Program-made: the position numbers and the translations under genes | Shown here: positions 12,372 through 23,784 of the stretch, one piece after another | Layout of the letters: the number at the start of each line of letters is the position of its first letter | Position numbering within the stretch: the stretch's first letter is position 1 | The notes under the pieces: generated by a model | What the model was told of the DNA's origin: nothing | Databases searched by the model: none | What the model saw: only the letters and a program-made list of their open reading frames with translations | Source: Candidatus Bathyarchaeota archaeon | Lineage (GTDB): Archaea; Thermoproteota; Bathyarchaeia; Bathyarchaeales; SOJC01 | DNA: 32,754 nucleotides | Assembly: GCA_004376645.1 (NCBI GenBank) | Contig: SOJC01000040.1 | Span: forward strand, 1-32,754 | Direction of reading: 5' to 3'

Positions 12372-14285
12372 ATGTCCTCAACTTCGCTCGGTAACACAGT
12401 GAGGAGAACAAGCGAACTGCTCAGAAAAGGTGCGGCTGAACAGATCTTGGAATATGAGAGACGCAAAAAACCTCTGCAGGCTCTCTATGAATGTTTCATA
12501 TCAGAACATATTGTGTCCAACTTCAGCAATCAAAGAGCGTACGAAACTGCTCAGGACTTCTTCGGCTCCCCCTCCATCAGCTTCGCTGCCATCGATGGCA
12601 CAATGTACGTTCGCCCCCTCTACGACCTGATAATATTCTTTGGTGGAGCTTACGCATCCACAGGATCAATCACATTTACCCCAACTTCCTTACCAACCAT
12701 CCAATACGACGCAAAAACAATTGAGAAAGGCGCAGGAATCTCCAGTGTCGTCCCCGTCTACATCAGTGAAGTTCCAGACATCGACCAGACGTTCTTTAGC
12801 GAAGAACAGCCTGGCGAAATCGCAACCAACAAACCGTTACAAGACAGTGCCATAATAAGCAACACTACAATTGCCAATTGGATAATGTCCTTCGCCGAAT
12901 ACTATCTAGCCTACAGATTCGCCACCGATCAAAGCCAAAACTTACATGTTATACTCTTAGATAGAAGCCTCTCCAACGAGCTAGCTAGCCTTCTCTATGA
13001 CACTTCAAAGAGAGAATTGTGGGAATCCAGATGCACCCTAATCGGCTACAGAATCAACAACACGACCATAGACCGCAACGATCTCTCTCTCGGACGGCAC
13101 CGTCTTCAAAACTATAAATTGAATATCCCTCCTCCAAGAGGTGTCTACCTCAACTCTGCGATATTTGACCTAATTCGAGAGAAAGGCCCCATTCAAAAAA
13201 GTCAGATCCTGCAGAATCTGAAAATAACAGATAATGAAAGAGCGAGAAGGGTAGGAAGATACCTCACAAGGTTAATGAGTGAAAAGATCATTTTGGAAAG
13301 AGACCACACATACGTTATCTCGGAGAAATACGCGACAACATGGCCAAGACTCAAGAAACTAGTTGACATAATAGGCAACCGTCTCTTCTATGGCAAAGGA
13401 ACTGAATCCACTTCTTCGAGCAACCTTCTAAAGATTAAGAAAGAAGGCAAAGACTATTGGCTCACAACCTTGGACATTGCCTTCCTTACTCTCTTCACTT
13501 TCCAGATGCTAATCGAAGAGTGTTGGAGAAGAAAAATCCTACTCGTGGGCATAACGAAGGACACTGCGGCCAGAGATATGAAACGTCAACTCATCCCAAT
13601 TCTCCACAGGAAAGGCCTGCTGAATCTGACCCGACCTACGGAGTTGTATAGGGATCTTCCTAATACTGACAGAATGATACTTCAATCCATCAGCCTTTTC
13701 AACCCTGAGAAAGTCAAAATCCCGTGGGCGCTGGCTGAGTATGACTCAGCCTTTCGCACTATGGTTCCTGACAATCAGGATTGTGGAGACTATGTGCTAG
13801 GGACAATCAAGAATCGGATAAGCCTTGAGAGGACCTTTCTGAAGACTTACATACAACTGGCACAAGCGAAGAAAGACCCTCTACTACGTAGCAACGTTCT
13901 TCTCATCGACCGGCTTGCATACTCACACTATGACGATGAATCAGAGGTAACCTTTCAGTTCTGGAACAAATTCGATAGTGCACGCGAGCCCCTTGAAGTG
14001 ATAATCTACAAGAACAAGACAACACCTAATCAGATCCAGAACTTAACAATGACAATTCTTCACGCTATGACACCATCAAGCATACCCGAAGCCTTCGGCC
14101 ATAACAAACCTCTCTTCATCGCCGACAAGATTGCCAAGTGGCATTATGGCCAATTCAAACGGATCGCAGACACAACAGCAATATGGATCCTCAACAATCA
14201 TAAATTAAGAAAGTTCGTATTTTACATGAGCACATTCAGAGAAAGGAGAGCCACAATTGAAGCAACAAGAAGAAGAGCAGTATAA
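12372..14285 (+). CDS. nurA: NurA-family nuclease, long form with internal winged-helix insert
   Basis: NurA is a 5'-3' nuclease that, with the HerA translocase, resects DNA ends for archaeal recombination. Conserved points: FAAIDGTMYV (71-80, metal-ligand Asp75), HVILLDRSL (192-200, Asp197), KILLVGITKDTAARD (388-402, motif III Lys396), NVLLIDRLAY (508-517) and the C-terminal PEAFGHNKPLFIADKIAK (572-589, the 'P..l..AH..A' region). At 637 aa it is well above the 330-450 aa of characterised NurA proteins. Part of the excess is residues about 262-318, AIFDLIREKGPIQKSQILQN to HTYVISEKY, which read as a winged-helix domain inserted between motifs. The next gene, herA, overlaps its end by 29 nt, so the partners are translationally coupled. 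ATG 12372 has a close GGTGA. Confidence 0.88.
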   Translation: MSSTSLGNTVRRTSELLRKGAAEQILEYERRKKPLQALYECFISEHIVSNFSNQRAYETAQDFFGSPSISFAAIDGTMYVRPLYDLIIFFGGAYASTGSITFTPTSLPTIQYDAKTIEKGAGISSVVPVYISEVPDIDQTFFSEEQPGEIATNKPLQDSAIISNTTIANWIMSFAEYYLAYRFATDQSQNLHVILLDRSLSNELASLLYDTSKRELWESRCTLIGYRINNTTIDRNDLSLGRHRLQNYKLNIPPPRGVYLNSAIFDLIREKGPIQKSQILQNLKITDNERARRVGRYLTRLMSEKIILERDHTYVISEKYATTWPRLKKLVDIIGNRLFYGKGTESTSSSNLLKIKKEGKDYWLTTLDIAFLTLFTFQMLIEECWRRKILLVGITKDTAARDMKRQLIPILHRKGLLNLTRPTELYRDLPNTDRMILQSISLFNPEKVKIPWALAEYDSAFRTMVPDNQDCGDYVLGTIKNRISLERTFLKTYIQLAQAKKDPLLRSNVLLIDRLAYSHYDDESEVTFQFWNKFDSAREPLEVIIYKNKTTPNQIQNLTMTILHAMTPSSIPEAFGHNKPLFIADKIAKWHYGQFKRIADTTAIWILNNHKLRKFVFYMSTFRERRATIEATRRRAV

Positions 14286-16146
14286 GGAAGCTTGCTTCAC
14301 AGACTTCAACGGGAAGTTCCACGCCCGGTTGATCAATGTCTTCCCCCGCCAACTCGGCAGTTCAAAAGACTCCAGATTCTCAGGTATAAGTTCAAGGTAC
14401 GAAGCCCGAATAAAGGTGGAATACCAAAAAGACCTCATGGGGCTACTAGAAGAAGGGATGCTTCTAGCCATTCCCAACTTCAAAAAAACTGAACCTGACT
14501 TTGAAAGGTTCACTCTAGTAGAGATCAGCAGGGTCTGGCCTGAACATTTCGGCTTAAAGGGACTCTCAGATCACAGCTACTACCCAATGTTATTCGAAAT
14601 TATAGAACAGTCAGAAGCAGATTGGCAAACCAACGATAAGGCCACAATGGTCATACAGATAAGTGCCATCCCAATAAATTACGACCTCACGATCCACTCC
14701 AATGGCAACTGCAAATTCACCAAAGGCTTTAGCTATCCAATAATAGCCAGCTCGGCCTACATCCTCAACAGCAGCCTGATAAATCACATGTATAATCAGA
14801 GGATAACCGAAAAAATCGCCACAGTCCCCATTGAAACAACACAGAATGCAAAACAAGATCCTCGATTAGGCACAGTGAGAATGTTCCAAACGAGCGAGAA
14901 GGCAATTCCAATCTATATAGATTTCGAAAACCTTTCACGTCATCATTTCGGCGTCTTCGCTTTCACCGGAGGCGGCAAGAGCAATCTCATGTCAAACATC
15001 CTCAGACGCATCCTCCTCCACACTAAAGATACAAAGATCATCATCTTTGACATAAGCTGTGAATACGTCTTCCTGCTCCTTGACATTCTCTCAGATCCCT
15101 CGATCCCTTCAAAAGTAATTCTTGAACGCAGAATCGACTCTATGGAGCAATTCTTCAATTCCATAGTGAAGCCCAGAGAATACGAAACCGACAAGAGAAT
15201 TAACAAAGGGCTGCAAAAAATCATGGATCAAGGTAAACTTTCATACTACACAAAACCCAAACAGAAAGTTCCCACCTACACTGGGTTTATCAAAGACTTG
15301 GAAAACCAAAGAAGAGAAAATTTCAGCAAACCCCACTACATAAATGCGATCGACCAAATCGGCGACGCCGTCCTCAAATACGTGGATCAACACGCCCTCA
15401 GCGAAAACCAAGAAGTTGATGAGGAATTCATTCGCTACATAGACTCTACAGCTGCAGAGACCGTTCAAACATTCAAAGTCCACGAAAAAAGCGGGCTATA
15501 CGCCTGGGCTACAACAAGAAATGCTCTACTCGATCTGATAAAGAAAGCTCAAGCAGAAGAGCAGAAAGAAGTTGGCGGACTGACAGTAGACAAAATATGT
15601 GGCTTCCTTGAAGGGGCGACAAGACTCGTCTGTGTTTCCATCGCAGATCCCTTCACGATAAAAGAGCTTGCAATAACCCTTACTGGAAATTTGATAGCTC
15701 GGCGAAAGCGAAGATTCCAAATCAAACCCTACATCCTCTTCGTGTTCGATGAAGCCCAAGAATTCATTCCAGACCTAGGAGGCTCCACAGGCATAGACAA
15801 AAAATGCAGCAAACAAGTTGAAACGTTGCTCAGGCAAGGACGTAAATATGGGCTGGGCGCATGCATTGCCACCCAAAGAATCGCCTACCTCAACACCAAT
15901 GCCCTCCAGCAACTCCACACATATTTTGTAGGCACATTACCTAGACCATACGATCGAGCCCTCGTGAGCAACACATTCATGATAGATCAAGGCATACTGG
16001 AAAAAACTCTTGAATTCGCGCCTGGCGAATGGCTGCTATCAAGCTTCACGGCAACTGGAATAGAGAACGTTCCCATATTCATCCAAGCAGACAACGCCCA
16101 AAACGAAATCAACAATTTCCTCTCAGCCAACAACCATCAATTGTAA
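14257..16146 (+). CDS. herA: HerA hexameric DNA translocase ATPase
   Basis: HerA is an FtsK-like ring ATPase that pumps DNA and drives NurA during end resection. The 629-aa sequence has an N-terminal beta-barrel (HAS-barrel) region to about 190, then FGVFAFTGGGKSNLMSNILR (231-250) with Walker A GGGKSN, IIIFDISCEY (261-270), a helical insert (about 285-440), Walker B YILFVFDEAQEF (492-503, Asp498-Glu499), an arginine-finger region LLRQGRKYGLG (524-534) and sensor GACIATQR (534-541), followed by QLHTYFVGTLPRPYDR. All key residues are present, so it should be active. The start is TTG 14257, preceded by GGAGAG at 14245-14250; the frame overlaps nurA by 29 nt. The length is slightly above the usual 500-600. 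Confidence 0.93.
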   Translation: MKQQEEEQYKEACFTDFNGKFHARLINVFPRQLGSSKDSRFSGISSRYEARIKVEYQKDLMGLLEEGMLLAIPNFKKTEPDFERFTLVEISRVWPEHFGLKGLSDHSYYPMLFEIIEQSEADWQTNDKATMVIQISAIPINYDLTIHSNGNCKFTKGFSYPIIASSAYILNSSLINHMYNQRITEKIATVPIETTQNAKQDPRLGTVRMFQTSEKAIPIYIDFENLSRHHFGVFAFTGGGKSNLMSNILRRILLHTKDTKIIIFDISCEYVFLLLDILSDPSIPSKVILERRIDSMEQFFNSIVKPREYETDKRINKGLQKIMDQGKLSYYTKPKQKVPTYTGFIKDLENQRRENFSKPHYINAIDQIGDAVLKYVDQHALSENQEVDEEFIRYIDSTAAETVQTFKVHEKSGLYAWATTRNALLDLIKKAQAEEQKEVGGLTVDKICGFLEGATRLVCVSIADPFTIKELAITLTGNLIARRKRRFQIKPYILFVFDEAQEFIPDLGGSTGIDKKCSKQVETLLRQGRKYGLGACIATQRIAYLNTNALQQLHTYFVGTLPRPYDRALVSNTFMIDQGILEKTLEFAPGEWLLSSFTATGIENVPIFIQADNAQNEINNFLSANNHQL

Positions 16147-17338: not shown

Positions 17339-19651
17339 CTAAAGATTTGGGAGGAAATGGGTGAGTTTTGTGGGTTGATAGCCCCTGATTGCGTCGTAAA
17401 CGTCTTTAGTTGAATAGCTAAAGGGACTCAAAATGTTTGAGGCAGCTGAATAGAGGAGTAGGAGGTATTTTCTAACATCAGAGTTTGTTCCGTCTTCAAT
17501 CAATTCTTCCGCTCTCACCCTTCGGTTATATCTCTTATTTTCCGCACTTGTAAAGACGAATCTAACACTCTTTCCAGCGGATACCTCAACACCTTCCTTC
17601 AAGAGTTGCTCGGCAGCGATTACTTGACTAACTCTCTGTTTGTAGTCTTCCAGATTCTTAGAGAGTCGTTTAGTGACGACTAAATCCCAAATTGGAACTT
17701 CTCCACTTAGCAGCCTGCTTCTGTATTCCTTAACCACGTTCAAAGCATCAGGTATCTTCACAATGACCCCTTTAGAGTCTCCAGCTGCAGCTAACGCTTT
17801 GATCATCGCCATCTGAGCGTCATACACAAACTTCGGAGTATCCCTCCTCCTAACCTCTAGACCCCTGACCTTAATTCTGCCATCTTCTTTTACACCGTAG
17901 TAACGATTTAACACGGCAACATTAGGGTGCTGTTTAGAAGGGAGGAAAACTATCCATCTGTATCTGCCTTCAAAATTTAAAGACACCCCAGTTACCTCAC
18001 TTATCTCCTTACACAAACTGACGTATTCCTGAACTGTTGCATCTTCCTTCTTCAGCCACAACGAATCGACGATGCCGTGGATGACGCTGAATCCTCTCTC
18101 TTCCGCCATGTGAGCAGCCTCTAAAAAAACATGCCTGCCAAAGGCGCAAACACTAATATGTCCGTCAACAGTGCCAAATTTAGCGTTTCTATATCCGAGA
18201 TAGCCAAAACATGTTACTAGAATCCACTTAAGCGCGCCTTGGCGCCTCTCGTAAACTTCCCTTAACTTCGCATCCTTAGCTTGTCGCATCAACTCTTTGT
18301 AACGCTGTCTCTTCGCAATTACAAACTTCAGGGTCTTCGGTATAATTCCCTCTCGTTTCTCGCAGATATTATAGTTGAGTTCTGGTACACGTAAAGTTGA
18401 GGTTGGGCAACACTTGCAGAGAACAGTCTCGGCTGAGATGTTGTTTTTCGCCATCAAAAAAGGGTACATTGATGAAAAATCTACTTCTCCAACTTGATCA
18501 TGGATGCCCATTCTGGGTTCGTAAACGAAGCCACCTCGATCTCCAACTAGCAATTCATAAGCTGATTTAAAAGCCTCTGGAACCCGTTTGTTCCTGGGAA
18601 TTAAGATGCCATTTTTTATGGCTTGGAAAAGCTGGAGGGAAGTCATGCTTGAGCCTATTGAAGAGCGAGAAGCCCTATGCAAGGGTACTCTGCAGGTTCT
18701 AGCAACCTCGATGAGCCCTTCTATACCACATTCAACGAGAATGAAAGTGTTATTCACGTCGATGTGGATTCTGCCATAGAGCCTCCTCGTTGGAGCCCTA
18801 AAGTAGGTTCTGCCATAAGAAAAGTAGGTTTTTCCTTTTCTGTGCCTAGCAACAAGGGGCACATTCTCTCTGCTAAGAACAAACCTGTCTAAAACTCCGT
18901 TAATCGTAGCCCTTCTTGCAAGGTAAGGAAAGATATGTGAATCTCCACCTCTGGTGAGTAAGATGTCTGGATCAAGTTCTCTAACAACTTCTATGAGTTG
19001 TAACAGTTTCTCTTTCTCGTCGCCAGAGGCTATGATAATGGCTTCATCATCTTGAGAAACTGTCACCTCCTTTACAGGATCGTGGAAGCTCGCTATCTTT
19101 TTCTTCTTAGCGACATCTACGTTGATCTTCATAATTCGTAAAGGTGGAATCGAATAGTCAACGCTTTCCACACTGTCTAAGAGACGATATCTTAGTTCTT
19201 GCTTTTCAACTTCGATTTCGGCAAAAGCGAGAGGGAAAATATCCTTGTTGTAAAGATAAGATTGGGTGCTTTGCAAATCGCAGTTATACACTTGAAATCG
19301 TAAGTATCTGCCAATCTCTAAGATTTCATGTACAAAGAACGGGACTCTCCTGCAATCTTTTAATTCAACCTCCAGCACTTTCGACTTTTCAATGTCGGTT
19401 GGACTAACATATCTGTAGACGAACTCAAATGAAGCTATGGATTTATCTAAGAAGAAACGGGTTGAGAGTCTCTCCAAATCCACTACGTTGCCAGAAATGT
19501 AGATTTTAGGCTTGAACTTATCTACGAATCGTATTCTCTCCCCATTCTTAGTGATAACCCAAATGCTCATCTGCCCAAAAGCTGAAGGGTAGATGTCGAA
19601 TATCCAGCCTTCTACATGTTTAGGGTTGGCTGTGTTGCTTTCTAACTGCAT
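17339..19651 (-). CDS. polB2: B-family DNA polymerase, PolB2 (Dpo2) type, exonuclease-dead
   Basis: The 770-aa protein aligns in order with B-family polymerases. Palm motif A is intact: GEVDFSSMYPFL (388-399, Asp391). In the fingers, KRQRYK (447-452) and QGALKWILVTCFGYLGYRN (471-489) keep the Arg and Lys475, but the KxxxNSxYG consensus reads K-WIL-V-T-C-F-G. Motif C reads HGIVDSLW (525-532): the second Asp (529) stays, the first (527) is Ile. Exonuclease motif I (FDIE) reads INVD (176-179), Exo II lacks the usual Asn/Asp (RGGDSHIFPYL, 234-244), and I find no Exo III Asp. This fits the PolB2/Dpo2 family linked to damage tolerance in crenarchaea. It is third in an operon, overlapping the 91-aa gene by 32 nt. 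ATG 19651. The C-terminus is QPTKLTHFLPNL. Confidence 0.88.
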   Translation of the reverse strand: MQLESNTANPKHVEGWIFDIYPSAFGQMSIWVITKNGERIRFVDKFKPKIYISGNVVDLERLSTRFFLDKSIASFEFVYRYVSPTDIEKSKVLEVELKDCRRVPFFVHEILEIGRYLRFQVYNCDLQSTQSYLYNKDIFPLAFAEIEVEKQELRYRLLDSVESVDYSIPPLRIMKINVDVAKKKKIASFHDPVKEVTVSQDDEAIIIASGDEKEKLLQLIEVVRELDPDILLTRGGDSHIFPYLARRATINGVLDRFVLSRENVPLVARHRKGKTYFSYGRTYFRAPTRRLYGRIHIDVNNTFILVECGIEGLIEVARTCRVPLHRASRSSIGSSMTSLQLFQAIKNGILIPRNKRVPEAFKSAYELLVGDRGGFVYEPRMGIHDQVGEVDFSSMYPFLMAKNNISAETVLCKCCPTSTLRVPELNYNICEKREGIIPKTLKFVIAKRQRYKELMRQAKDAKLREVYERRQGALKWILVTCFGYLGYRNAKFGTVDGHISVCAFGRHVFLEAAHMAEERGFSVIHGIVDSLWLKKEDATVQEYVSLCKEISEVTGVSLNFEGRYRWIVFLPSKQHPNVAVLNRYYGVKEDGRIKVRGLEVRRRDTPKFVYDAQMAMIKALAAAGDSKGVIVKIPDALNVVKEYRSRLLSGEVPIWDLVVTKRLSKNLEDYKQRVSQVIAAEQLLKEGVEVSAGKSVRFVFTSAENKRYNRRVRAEELIEDGTNSDVRKYLLLLYSAASNILSPFSYSTKDVYDAIRGYQPTKLTHFLPNL

Positions 19652-19895
19652 CTAACTCTTTCTCTATTCTGTTCAGCATCTTCTGTTGATGTAAGAGAAT
19701 TGAGAGGATCATGGGCTCGAAGATAATAGGGCGCGTGGCGTTACTTCCTGCAGACGCGTAGCTTCTACATGCATCCATTAGATGATCAAAAGCCTTTCTG
19801 TCTTCTCTGCGTAAGGCTCTTGCAAATCCATTCCACTTCAGTAATTCTCTATCTAATGCTATTCGATAGGACTCCACGGTTTTTCCCATGTTCAC
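19620..19895 (-). CDS. Small helical protein of the PolB2 cassette (91 aa)
   Basis: The 91-aa protein is almost all helix: TVESYRIALDRELLKWNGFA (6-25), RREDRKAFDHLMDACRSYAS (29-48) and IIFEPMILSILLHQQKMLNR (57-76), then a charged end. There is no metal site or membrane segment. Its start (GTG 19895) overlaps the stop of the RadA-like gene (GTGA), and its end overlaps the polymerase start by 32 nt, so all three are translated together. A small helical protein between the RadA-like and PolB2 genes is, as I recall, part of the conserved Dpo2 cassette in Sulfolobales; its role there is unknown, perhaps a bridge between the two. ATG 19889 would be two codons shorter. Confidence 0.8.
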   Translation of the reverse strand: MNMGKTVESYRIALDRELLKWNGFARALRREDRKAFDHLMDACRSYASAGSNATRPIIFEPMILSILLHQQKMLNRIEKELDAVRKQHSQP

Positions 19896-20608
19896 GCCTC
19901 AAGGAACTCTGCTAAATTTTCTGAATGAAAGTAAGCGCTTCCAGAGTTTAGAAGTGGATGCTTCTCCAGAGTGAATTGCCGGCCATACTTTGAAAGTTCA
20001 ACGGAAGCAACGACGTTGGCACGGCCACAAATTATTGCCTTCAAAAACATGCCTTCTCTCGAAGCCCGATTTGGGAGAAGCGTGGTGACCACAACCATTT
20101 GATTTCTATCAGCAAATTTTGCGAGGTAACTGGTTAACTGGTTGAAGACATCTACTGACTCTCTCTTCGGGACATCCTTGTCAAGGTATAACCGGGCAAT
20201 GTCTGATATTATCACAAGTTTCGAGCGATACTTCTCAACAGTTCTCTGTAACCACTCAAATATCAAAGATGTCATCTGATAAGCTGTGAACGCTCTAGAG
20301 ATGAAAATCCGATTTAAAACATCCATTGGATAAAGCTTGTGAAGCTGAGCGAGGTAAGAAACATCGTATAGCCTGAAGGTGTTTCCTCCATCAACGAATA
20401 TCACATTTGTTTTTAATCCTCCAAGTTGATATGGGAGCTGGGCTCTAACGCAGAGGAGCATGGATAAGGGTAAAATTGCGGATGAGCCGTGAAAGACGGC
20501 GAAGTCGCCTGCGACGAATCCTGGAAAAACATGGTCAACATTTTTGATGTTGAAAGATAATTGGAATTGAGAGGATAAAGTAGTCTTCACTAATGTTCTC
20601 AGCGACAA
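19892..20608 (-). CDS. RadA/RecA-like protein without Walker A lysine (PolB2 cassette)
   Basis: The 238-aa protein has the RecA core layout: FPGFVAGDFAVFHGSSA (28-44) where RadA has the Walker A loop, NVIFVDGGNTFRLYDV (68-83, matching RadA 'viyIDtE.tFrp.ri'), RIFISRAFTAYQMTSLI (100-116), KLVIISDIARLYLD (130-143, Walker B region with Asp136) and MVVVTTLLPNRAS (171-183, the sensor/L2 region). The P-loop reads HGSSAILPLS, lacking GKT/S, so ATP hydrolysis is unlikely. The family role is probably scaffold or DNA/RadA partner of PolB2, like ImuA of bacterial mutasomes (inference). The start is TTG 20608 with AGGT about 7 nt ahead; GTG seven codons later is an alternative. First gene of the operon. 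Confidence 0.82.
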   Translation of the reverse strand: MSLRTLVKTTLSSQFQLSFNIKNVDHVFPGFVAGDFAVFHGSSAILPLSMLLCVRAQLPYQLGGLKTNVIFVDGGNTFRLYDVSYLAQLHKLYPMDVLNRIFISRAFTAYQMTSLIFEWLQRTVEKYRSKLVIISDIARLYLDKDVPKRESVDVFNQLTSYLAKFADRNQMVVVTTLLPNRASREGMFLKAIICGRANVVASVELSKYGRQFTLEKHPLLNSGSAYFHSENLAEFLEA

Positions 20609-20771: not shown

Positions 20772-21692
20772 TTGACTGAGTACCTTATTGGAACTGGTGG
20801 CTGGGGCTACTTCAAAGTTCCAAGCAAACCCTCACTAAGAGCCTATTCTGAGCACTTCAACTTTGTAGAAGTCAACTACACCTTTTATGAATATCCAGAC
20901 TCGAGAACTGTTGAGAGATGGCGTCAAACCGTGCCCGACGATTTCACGTTTACAGTTAGATGCCACCAAGACCTAACTCACAAGATAGGGCTGCAATCAA
21001 CAGACGAAGCCATTGAAGTCTTCGGCCGAATGATATGGATCTGCAAGATTCTTGACGCTCCCTTTCTGCATCTGCTAACACCTGCAAATTACTCTCTAGA
21101 CAACAGAAAGATAAGGCAAGCTAGAGATTTATTCTCAACAGCAAACTGGAAAGGAGTTCAACTAGCTTGGGAAGTGAGAAGCACAATAACCCCTAAGCTT
21201 GGTGATTTGATGCGGGACATGGAGATAGTTAACTCAGTTGACCTCTCAAGAGAGAAGTTCCCTCAGAAAACTGATATCATCTACACCAGACTTTTCGGCA
21301 AAGGAAGACACAACATCTACCAGTTCATCGACGAAGAGCTAATGGAGATAGATCAAAGAATACTGAAGGCGGAAGCCAAAACCGCTTTCATAACCTATCA
21401 TGGGGTAAGGATGAATAGTGATGCCTCAAGATTCAAACACTATAAGGAAACCGGACGATTTCTACCTGTATCTGCCTTCACTGGTATAGATTCGATCAGA
21501 TCTGCACTTGAAGAGGATGCTAAGTTTCCATGCACAAAGACAGAGTTGGTCAAGCATCAAGGCTGGAAAGTAGTTGATTTGACAATTGATAAGCGAGTTC
21601 ATCTTTCAAAGATGCTCTCAAAGCTCCATGAAAAGACATATGGCAACATCCAAGAGGTCATCAAAGAATTAGAGGTTTCCACTCTTGAATGA
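20772..21692 (+). CDS. DUF72 (YecE-type) TIM-barrel protein with C-terminal DUF2795-like domain
   Basis: The 306-aa protein starts with the DUF72 opening YLIGTGGWGYFKVPSKPSLR (4-23), continues YSEHFNFVEVNYTFYEYPD (25-43, family pattern 'Ya..F~tvEvN.TFY..P'), W..~vPddFtFtvr...dlTHK (50-71) and IYTRLFGKGRHNIYQF (170-185). DUF72 is a TIM-barrel family of unknown activity. The end (251-300, KFPCTKTELVKHQGWKVVDL then LHEKTYGNIQEVIKELE) reads like a DUF2795 domain ('yP.tk.eLv..a...~vv..L..L....Y.s.~evi..l'). The TTG 20772 start follows GAGGGTGAAGG. The gene overlaps the second DUF72 gene by 8 nt. The two are related but this copy is more divergent, and it has GTGGW instead of GTSGW. Confidence 0.82.
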   Translation: MTEYLIGTGGWGYFKVPSKPSLRAYSEHFNFVEVNYTFYEYPDSRTVERWRQTVPDDFTFTVRCHQDLTHKIGLQSTDEAIEVFGRMIWICKILDAPFLHLLTPANYSLDNRKIRQARDLFSTANWKGVQLAWEVRSTITPKLGDLMRDMEIVNSVDLSREKFPQKTDIIYTRLFGKGRHNIYQFIDEELMEIDQRILKAEAKTAFITYHGVRMNSDASRFKHYKETGRFLPVSAFTGIDSIRSALEEDAKFPCTKTELVKHQGWKVVDLTIDKRVHLSKMLSKLHEKTYGNIQEVIKELEVSTLE

Positions 21693-22503
21693 AAGCAACA
21701 TTTCGCTAGGTACTTCTGGGTGGAGCTACAAAGAATGGGAGCAATCATTCTATAGAAAGGGAGAGAAATCCAAGCTTCGGGCCTACTCGCGAATCTTCTC
21801 AACTGTCGAAATTGATTCAACTTGGTATAGGTATCCTTCAAAGGGAATGGTGATAGGATGGCTACGTTATTCTCCCTCAGATTTCGTGTTTACAGCCAAA
21901 ATGCCTAAGGTTATAACTCATGAAAAGATGCTTGGCCTCAAAGACGATGTCAAAAAGGATTTGGAAGCATTTCTGGAGATCATGCAGCCTCTGCAATTAA
22001 ATGGGAAACTAGGATGCCTTCTGATCCAGCTCCCCCCTAGCTATGAGTACAATCCTGAAAACTTGGAAGAATTCTTCGAGTCTCTCTCTCCTCAATTCAA
22101 ATTCGCCATCGAATTCCGAAACCTCTCCTGGATGCGAGAAGAAACTTGGGCACTGCTGAAGAAGTACAATGTTGCGTATACCAATGTGGACGAACCACTT
22201 CTGCCACCCGAAATTCACATCACAGCCGACTTCACCTATTTCCGCTGGCATGGAAGAGGACGAAAGCCTTGGTTCAACTATCTATACAAGAAGGAAGAAC
22301 TTGAACCATGGATCCCAAAGATTCAAGAAGCATCCAAACAAGTTCGCAGAGTATATGGATACTTCAACAATCATTTCCATGGCTACGCTCCCGAAAATTG
22401 TCTATCTCTGATCGAGAAGATAATGCCACTAACGCCCAAACAAAAGGAAGCTAAGAGAAGAATTAGCAAGAGGCAAGTGGGTCTTACCAGCTTTTTCGAA
22501 TAA
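21685..22503 (+). CDS. DUF72 (YecE-type) TIM-barrel protein ending in a PCNA-binding box
   Basis: This 272-aa copy is a textbook DUF72: SLGTSGWSYKEWEQSFYRKG (7-26), YSRIFSTVEIDSTWYRYPSK (34-53), PSDFVFTAKMPKVITHEKML (64-83), GCLLIQLPPSYEY (110-122), FAIEFRNLSWMREETWALL (140-158), TYFRWHGRGRKPW (184-196) and RRVYGYFNNHFHGYAPENCL (221-240). After the barrel comes a short basic linker (PKQKEAKRRISKR) and the last nine residues QVGLTSFFE. These match QxxLxxFF, the PIP box that binds the PCNA clamp, in the usual terminal position. So the protein probably works on DNA at the clamp; the chemistry is unknown. TTG 21685 overlaps the previous gene; AGAGGT (about 21670) is its ribosome-binding site. Confidence 0.87.
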   Translation: MNESNISLGTSGWSYKEWEQSFYRKGEKSKLRAYSRIFSTVEIDSTWYRYPSKGMVIGWLRYSPSDFVFTAKMPKVITHEKMLGLKDDVKKDLEAFLEIMQPLQLNGKLGCLLIQLPPSYEYNPENLEEFFESLSPQFKFAIEFRNLSWMREETWALLKKYNVAYTNVDEPLLPPEIHITADFTYFRWHGRGRKPWFNYLYKKEELEPWIPKIQEASKQVRRVYGYFNNHFHGYAPENCLSLIEKIMPLTPKQKEAKRRISKRQVGLTSFFE

Positions 22504-22566: not shown

Positions 22567-23784
22567 TCATGACCGTCGCAATTCATAACTATCGGTTTCA
22601 TGAATGTAATGTAGCTTTCCAGTTTTCACTGATTCTGACAAACCAATTTCAACCTCGTCTTTGCTGAATCTTCTCAAGCTGCTGCATGTTGCAGAAATCA
22701 GCCAGTTTCGAGGATATGTGAATCCCGGTTTTACGTTTGTCATAAGCTCTCTGGCACATTCACCCAGTCTCTCTGACGCGAAAATCTTCGATTCTCCTGT
22801 GACAATCTTCATATCCTTCGTAAGCGGTGAAGATGGGATGTGCAGGGTTCTTTGAATTTTCTTGGCGAGAGCCATTTTTGATTTGCGGTTGCCATGACAA
22901 GTAAAGACGACTTTTGGTCTAGCCTCTTCCACATACTCGAGTAAACGGTAGAAGTCTGAGTGGTCGCTTAAACAGAAGGCTTTTCTCCTTCCTGAAAATC
23001 TGGAGCCCCAACCTGACACGAACGCTGCTTTGAACTCGGGTCTACCCCGTAAGTCAACGTTCTTTGGCAGTATAAGCGTGCATTCTTTTCCGTCAAGAAC
23101 CTCTTTGCCTTCTTTGCAGTTTTGGTCCAAGTACTCTAGCTTATGCCCAAATTCTCCATAGATGTTATTGTAGTTAGAAACTTTAGGATGAGTTATTACA
23201 GGAATATTAGTCAGTCTGTTTAGTAGTGCGATGAGTTCTTGAGCGTTCCCTAAGGCATCAGTTTGAAAAGCCGGTATCTTACCAGTCTTAATCGTATAGT
23301 TTGTCCATTTTGCGATTCTTTCATACATATACTCTTTAGAAGGAAAATAACAGGGAGTTCCATAAGTTGATTCGATGATCAGGATGTCACATGGTACAAC
23401 TTCTGCTCTCTTTATCAACAATGTGTCCCTGAAGTTGATGTCACCAGTATAGACAACATTTCCCAAAGGAGAAATTATCTCATATTGGGTTGAGCCTAAA
23501 ATGTGTCCGGCATTGTGGGCTTCAACCTCAACATCACCGAACACAATTTTCTCGCCATATTCAACGAAGTGATGATTCTTAGCTTTTCCACAGGAAACCT
23601 GGGCCAAGGCGAAGGTGGCTTGTGTGGAATACGCTTCGTCGACCAACTTCAACTTGCCACAGTGATCACCATGGGCGTGAGATATGAAAACAGGACTGTC
23701 TGATCTTCTTACTGCATCCAGAACAACTTGGGTGTCCTTAAACAGAACTTCGATTCCATTGGTCCGTCTGATGGAAAAAGCCAT
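22567..23784 (-). CDS. Metallo-beta-lactamase nuclease-like protein with C-terminal extra domain
   Basis: The 405-aa protein has an MBL core: VFISHAHGDHCGKL (32-45, zinc motif HAHGDH 36-41), AHNAGHILGSTQYE (89-102, His94), VYTGDINFRDTLL (111-123, Asp115), DILIIESTYGTP (133-144), FVSGWGSRFSGRRKAF (255-270), CLSDHSDFYRLLEYV (271-285) and VVFTCHGNRKSKMALAKKI (292-310, His297). The 'SDHSDF...' and '.cHG' pair are as in SNM1/Artemis-like and DNA-ligase-associated exonucleases, so a DNA or RNA nuclease is the best guess. Residues about 335-405 form a separate small alpha/beta domain, perhaps winged-helix. ATG 23784; a TATA-like ACTTAAAG (23827-23834, minus) lies about 43 nt upstream. The gene is convergent with the PIP-box DUF72 gene, 63 bp apart. 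Confidence 0.82.
   Translation of the reverse strand: MAFSIRRTNGIEVLFKDTQVVLDAVRRSDSPVFISHAHGDHCGKLKLVDEAYSTQATFALAQVSCGKAKNHHFVEYGEKIVFGDVEVEAHNAGHILGSTQYEIISPLGNVVYTGDINFRDTLLIKRAEVVPCDILIIESTYGTPCYFPSKEYMYERIAKWTNYTIKTGKIPAFQTDALGNAQELIALLNRLTNIPVITHPKVSNYNNIYGEFGHKLEYLDQNCKEGKEVLDGKECTLILPKNVDLRGRPEFKAAFVSGWGSRFSGRRKAFCLSDHSDFYRLLEYVEEARPKVVFTCHGNRKSKMALAKKIQRTLHIPSSPLTKDMKIVTGESKIFASERLGECARELMTNVKPGFTYPRNWLISATCSSLRRFSKDEVEIGLSESVKTGKLHYIHETDSYELRRS

Follow-up and report, generated by a model that had tools for sequence, protein, structure and literature searches.

DUF72b, an archaeal TIM-barrel protein of the DUF72 (YecE) family, as a probable PCNA client, and beta-clamp-like tails in its bacterial relatives

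An archaeal DUF72 protein, here called DUF72b, ends in a PCNA-interacting (PIP) box that is conserved in its close orthologues, tails of PIP type are carried by DUF72 proteins of many archaea, and other members of the same family end, in several bacterial groups, in motifs of the beta-clamp type. We consider DUF72b to be a likely sliding-clamp client (probability about three in four), its PIP tail binding PCNA and its barrel acting in a damage-tolerance response linked to the DNA polymerase PolB2. The case is built on the motif itself, its conservation, a motif swap in DUF72 that follows the domain of life, and the gene context. To our knowledge, DUF72/YecE proteins, which occur across bacteria and archaea and of which structures have been solved since 2004, are without an assigned function. 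A domain-specific clamp tag indicates where the family works, probably, judging from the sequences, on damaged DNA at replication forks, and it makes the function testable in laboratory E. coli K-12, whose YecE ends in QSSLF, as well as in archaea. If true, this would place one more family on the small list of proteins that bind the beta clamp, and two error-prone polymerase systems may thereby gain a component.

The PIP box and the protein that carries it

The window, that is the whole stretch of 32,754 nucleotides analysed here, is one contig of a draft archaeal genome of 1.25 Mb in 142 contigs (completeness 94.7%), to which Bathyarchaeota genomes are the closest among named relatives. The gene and its 3' end comprise:

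21685 to 22503, plus strand: DUF72b, a 272-residue TIM-barrel protein (Pfam PF01904, E=4.1e-65; AlphaFold2)
22429 to 22473, plus strand: basic helix/linker LTPKQKEAKRRISKR preceding the PIP box (from the sequence; pLDDT falls to 55, then 40, in the final two blocks)
22474 to 22500, plus strand: C-terminal PIP box QVGLTSFFE (the sole C-terminal QxxLxxFF of the draft; conserved in orthologues)
20772 to 21692, plus strand: DUF72a, a diverged paralogue in the same operon, with no PIP box (PF01904, E=7e-27)

DUF72b scores 220 bits against PF01904, for which the curated Pfam cut-off is 25.3. Its start codon, TTG, lies 8 nt within the 3' end of the upstream paralogue, so that the two genes form a tandem plus-strand pair (20772-21692 and 21685-22503) with an overlap of 8 bases. 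AlphaFold2 predicts the barrel with high confidence (mean pLDDT 89.5), and the C-terminal tail is predicted to be flexible or disordered, pLDDT being below 50 in the final seven residues (266-272).

The C-terminus reads KEAKRRISKRQVGLTSFFE up to the stop, with Q264-F271 encoded at 22474-22497, E272 at 22498-22500 and the stop TAA at 22501-22503. The original prediction had placed QxxLxxFF at the very end of the protein, behind a basic linker, and we found it exactly there, the precise motif being QVGLTSFF plus E. QVGLTSFF agrees with the PIP consensus Qxx[LIM]xx[FY][FY]. Archaeal PIP boxes have been described as extreme C-terminal, disordered and flanked by basic residues (PMC6881253); that of DUF72b is at the very end of the protein, residues 266-272 are those of pLDDT below 50, and the preceding flank, KEAKRRISKR, is basic. 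The archaeal PIP clients FEN1, PolB and the RFC large subunit likewise end, behind a basic stretch, in a motif of the QxxLxxFF type; they are replication or repair enzymes, whereas the DUF72b barrel is not a known one.

It is hardly credible that this resemblance arose by chance or by hitch-hiking, a reading that the statistics refute to the extent that sequence statistics are able to. In six frames of the 1.25-Mb draft, 53 DNA sites encode QxxLxxFF, and that of DUF72b alone ends an open frame (at least 60 codons upstream), in a statistic built from DNA pattern matches and the surrounding sequence stretches. Scored in the last 15 residues, the strict PIP pattern was present in 11 of 27 short DUF72b tails versus 2 of the 781 other ORF C-termini of the window and 80 related loci that served as background; in 2000 shuffles of the short tails the mean was 0.06 and the maximum 2. 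When the tails were clustered below 65% identity, the 10 that were left gave 2 strict and 5 core matches, compared with 0.01 and 0.74 in shuffles. The PIP signal in these sequences thus survives clustering, with the strict form mainly in one part of the DUF72b clade. The motif is missing from some of the 27 short tails, as chance would allow, but the shuffles, the background, the genome-wide scan and an independent bacterial motif (see below) all contradict that reading.

Conservation of the tail in archaea

Conservation among close DUF72 orthologues, the check proposed with the original prediction, was complete. The PIP residues Q, L, [FY] and F are kept in 9/9 orthologues found in the GTDB family, the window's own included, while the x positions vary; the other tails are KKQVGLASFFQNN, RKQVGLIGYFEKK, KKQVGLTSFFQDS, KKQSSLAGFFE, KKQVGLTSFFQNG, KKQVGLAKYFEK, KKQVGLQGFFENK and KKQVGLTNFFAE. 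A reduced form, [QK]xxLxxF, recurs in other short DUF72b orthologues: more distant tails read KQSNLEGFL, KQSQLGAFF, KQTTLGAFG and KKSSLEEFF, the last at the stop, and those of Nitrososphaeria end in QKTLGEF, KITDF or KLLTDFL. FEN1 is an established PCNA client, and its tail has this same form in these genomes. Within the same family its C-termini are KAKTTLDAFFG, KARTTLDVFFGSST or KSKTTLDTFF, so K in place of Q at PIP position 1 is normal there.

Both sampled members of the genus (G000 and G001), this draft and a 79%-complete congener, gave no PCNA gene, also when rechecked with a relative's PCNA protein. The gene is present in 11/11 other members of the family searched, and the two absences are probably assembly gaps. 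At least one relative with a complete genome (G012) has no DUF72b at all.

Of 69 longer forms of DUF72b, about 390 residues in length, 66 continue into a C-terminal HxC...CxH zinc-finger-like (SWIM-like) domain (e.g. L102, L109, L110), to which a single weak Pfam SWIM match corresponds (E=0.26). The linker of these proteins contains a weaker LxxF-type motif, L..[FYW] being found in 44/67 versus 8.9 in shuffles; the scored interval was shifted for this count, since the initial pattern was confounded by the preceding helix. As position 1 is mostly not Q and the count ignores relatedness, the motif is at most suggestive of a clamp-like signal. In another archaeal clade of DUF72 (f29 and others) the tails mostly have a shorter clamp-like form, Q..L(F) or Q..L..F, as in QVKLF, QEKLF, QKTLGSF, QTKLEF and QRSLFE (loci L297, L306, L307, L310, L313, L315, L317, L318, L319 and L322).

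Bacterial DUF72 tails resemble beta-clamp motifs

The bacterial beta-clamp motif is QPhi-x-[L/M][F/L] or, with six residues, QPhi-x-[L/M]x[F/L] (PMC11139829). EF0366 of E. faecalis (PDB 1VPY) ends in NPKQLDLF, the PDB chain itself ending in QLDLF, and relatives at 38-62% identity end in TQMDLF, MQMDLFSE, KQLDFFNEF, QQLKLF and EQLSLF; in the alignment of this group the Q and the motif's last F are invariant. In a second bacterial clade, YecE of E. coli, Salmonella and Klebsiella ends in QQSSLF, the Aeromonas member in RQGVLPF and a Pseudomonas sequence in VEQLGLL, while a Nonomuraea DUF72 protein of the YecE clade ends, without Q, in EPLTLF. Firmicutes and Pseudomonas tails are canonical; the enterobacterial QSSLF, QGVLPF of Aeromonas and QLDFF of Priestia are variants. 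A slightly widened clamp pattern was matched by 9 of the 23 bacterial tails sampled, against a mean of 0.7 and a maximum of 4 in shuffles, in a small and uneven sample that comes from collections of plasmids, phage records and E. coli genomes; several records labelled 'phage' or 'plasmid' have the look of host DNA. Scans of viral contigs with Firmicutes and archaeal DUF72 queries gave nothing useful. Several prophages (phi80, PPyecE and others) integrate at yecE, which accounts for the yecE fragments in phage records.

Bacterial DUF72, with a C-terminal motif of the QLxLF type, resembles beta-clamp-binding proteins such as Pol II, Pol IV, UmuC and Hda; YecE, YunF and DUF72 do not appear in the review of that motif (PMC11139829). 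The DUF72 structures of TM1631 and EF0366 (1VPQ, 1VPY, 1ZTV), which share family and fold with DUF72b, have no function assigned to them, and we found no mention of the QLDLF tail of the EF0366 chain as a clamp motif.

A tree of the barrels places the bacterial tags apart from the archaeal PIP clade, and its starred branches make two changes necessary to account for them. Most likely the same barrel acquired a clamp tag repeatedly, and always in the form proper to the host's own type of clamp. As the tag matches the clamp of its own domain, neither chance nor an unrelated function of the tail is an easy explanation, and no other single argument for DUF72 as a clamp binder is as good as this match. 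A PIP box general to DUF72 was considered and rejected, as DUF72a, the rhizobial proteins and several archaeal clades are without the tag. The clades that stop right after the barrel include rhizobia, Desulfosarcina, Paraburkholderia and several archaea. With so many clades tail-less, the fold as such does not depend on binding a clamp.

Gene context points to damage tolerance

Divergent from DUF72a lies an operon with the gene order iRadA-PPB2-PolB2 of the PolB2 mutasome (PMC11791011):

20709 to 20720, minus strand: tandem ACTTTC (ANTTTC) boxes, a candidate damage-response element in the divergent iRadA/DUF72a promoter region (GTGAAAGTGAA-like block)
19892 to 20608, minus strand: iRadA, RadA-like, divergent from DUF72a (PF08423, E=1.6e-12; PIP-like tail SENLAEFLEA)
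19620 to 19895, minus strand: PPB2-like small protein (from position and size; conserved between iRadA and PolB2 in relatives; no match in a Pfam search)
17339 to 19651, minus strand: PolB2-type DNA polymerase B (PF00136, E=1e-40; operon order as published)

DUF72 has been reported as enriched near polB2, with PCNA or beta-clamp motifs moving between PolB2 and iRadA (PMC11791011). A clamp motif in DUF72 is not among the findings of that work. DUF72b joins the carriers of such motifs, mostly with its paralogue DUF72a next to it, and in this contig the mutasome operon adjoins the DUF72 pair. The C-terminus of PolB2, QPTKLTHFLPNL, is PIP-like, as is that of iRadA, whose relatives often end in LTxFM(EV).

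Of 80 loci, 54 have DUF72a close to DUF72b, the two genes being either co-directional or divergent, and the pair spans Bathyarchaeia, Asgard-group, Nitrososphaerota and Thermoplasmatota genomes; such recurrence suggests an obligate pair. The DUF72a sequences form a single clade (support 100/100) and have diverged where DUF72b matches TM1631 (K72 to R, D169 to L, H189 to F, and N228-N229), residue losses consistent with the role of a non-catalytic partner. Other possible partners of the tail are thus close at hand, since 16 of the 80 named loci, the six nearest included, also have PolB2 or iRadA no more than 8 kb from DUF72b, and the tail could be a real conserved motif for DUF72a, iRadA or PolB2, for instance, rather than for the clamp. 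We regard this as unlikely. PIP tails are also found at loci that lack PolB2 (L081, L082, L084-L088), the archaeal tail is shaped like the FEN1 PIP box of the same genomes, and the clamp-tagged bacterial members, in the annotated records seen, have no adjacent PolB2 or DUF72a, yet agree with the beta-clamp consensus.

The GTGAAAGTGAA-like block between DUF72a and iRadA is conserved in 7 sequences, with one match within the window, and its reverse complement contains ANTTTC, which in Sulfolobales is the Orc1-2 damage-response element (PMC9738581). The ACTTTC boxes are partly conserved in relatives and are a lead to a damage-response element here; the extended block is unique in the genome, so a regulon cannot be inferred from it.

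In bacteria, DUF72 genes sit in mutagenesis cassettes. A Desulfosarcina plasmid (L182:5310-11085) has the order lexA, DUF72, a Y-family-like (IMS) gene and DnaE, and a Paraburkholderia plasmid (L271:3094-9269) has imuA, a Y-family gene, an error-prone polymerase and DUF72, in an imuA-imuB-dnaE2 cassette. Both cassette proteins are tail-less, and a partner may supply the clamp contact there. Taken as a whole, the gene context (PolB2 operon, imuA-imuB-dnaE2, lexA, ANTTTC boxes) points to damage tolerance. The DNA-repair role proposed at the outset gains support from the conserved tail, the bacterial beta-clamp motifs, the PolB2 linkage and the imuA-imuB-dnaE2/lexA cassettes. As a statement about the whole family it needs a qualification, for the clamp tag is not universal and several clades are tail-less.

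The barrel and its possible action

The best PDB match to the DUF72b model is TM1631 (1VPQ, E=1.2e-19), for which a phosphate/DNA groove was predicted and whose structure has led to the proposal that it binds DNA lesions in the manner of endonuclease IV (PMC3828134). The conserved residues of DUF72b are E42, K72, H79, E143, R145, D169, R187, H189 and N228-N229, with few His, many basic residues and no obvious multi-metal cluster. Outside DUF72, the best Foldseek matches are weak, an AP-endonuclease-family entry and sugar epimerases alike. We therefore rejected the idea that the DUF72 fold alone proves nuclease activity.

DUF72 could instead be an ordinary metabolic TIM barrel, of the sugar epimerase or isomerase kind, whose tail merely moonlights or localises. 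UlaE and D-psicose epimerases indeed match level with the AP-endonuclease-family entry, and E. coli yecE adjoins yecD and yecN, not repair genes. Against this, DUF72 genes are found time and again with damage polymerases, lexA and a DNA ligase (also PMC11791011), and a phosphate/DNA groove has been predicted in TM1631 (PMC3828134); we hold a purely metabolic role to be distinctly improbable.

If DUF72b is a clamp client, its disordered basic tail would dock into PCNA through the PIP box and tether the barrel to DNA under replication or repair, which may recruit the protein to stalled or damaged forks. There the barrel, probably paired with DUF72a, would bind or process a damaged-DNA structure, in the same, presumably damage-induced, tolerance response to which the PolB2 mutasome, transcribed in the opposite direction, belongs. 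Bacterial members of the family would make the same link by a beta-clamp motif, or are encoded, untagged, in the ImuA/ImuB/DnaE2 cassette. The chemistry of the barrel is the least certain part of this explanation. One may speculate further that DUF72 is a clamp-tethered, lesion-processing factor of translesion synthesis in archaea and bacteria alike, acting as DUF72a/b with PolB2 through PCNA, or through the beta clamp or ImuA/ImuB/DnaE2, with a tag that moves between subunits and changes form with the type of clamp; we put this forward tentatively, as something we doubt more than we believe.

The original prediction named no earlier description. In the open-access literature we met no paper that describes a clamp motif in DUF72; the link to polB2 and a role at lesions had already been suggested in publications (PMC11791011, PMC3828134).

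Two further loci of the window deserve mention. Convergent with DUF72b, a metallo-beta-lactamase protein (22567-23784) resembles the ligase-associated DNA-damage exonuclease family TIGR04122, at 146 bits, below the cut-off. At 12372-16146, a 637-residue protein with no Pfam or NCBIfam match is followed by a DUF87 helicase of the HerA type, and the two may form a pair like NurA-HerA.
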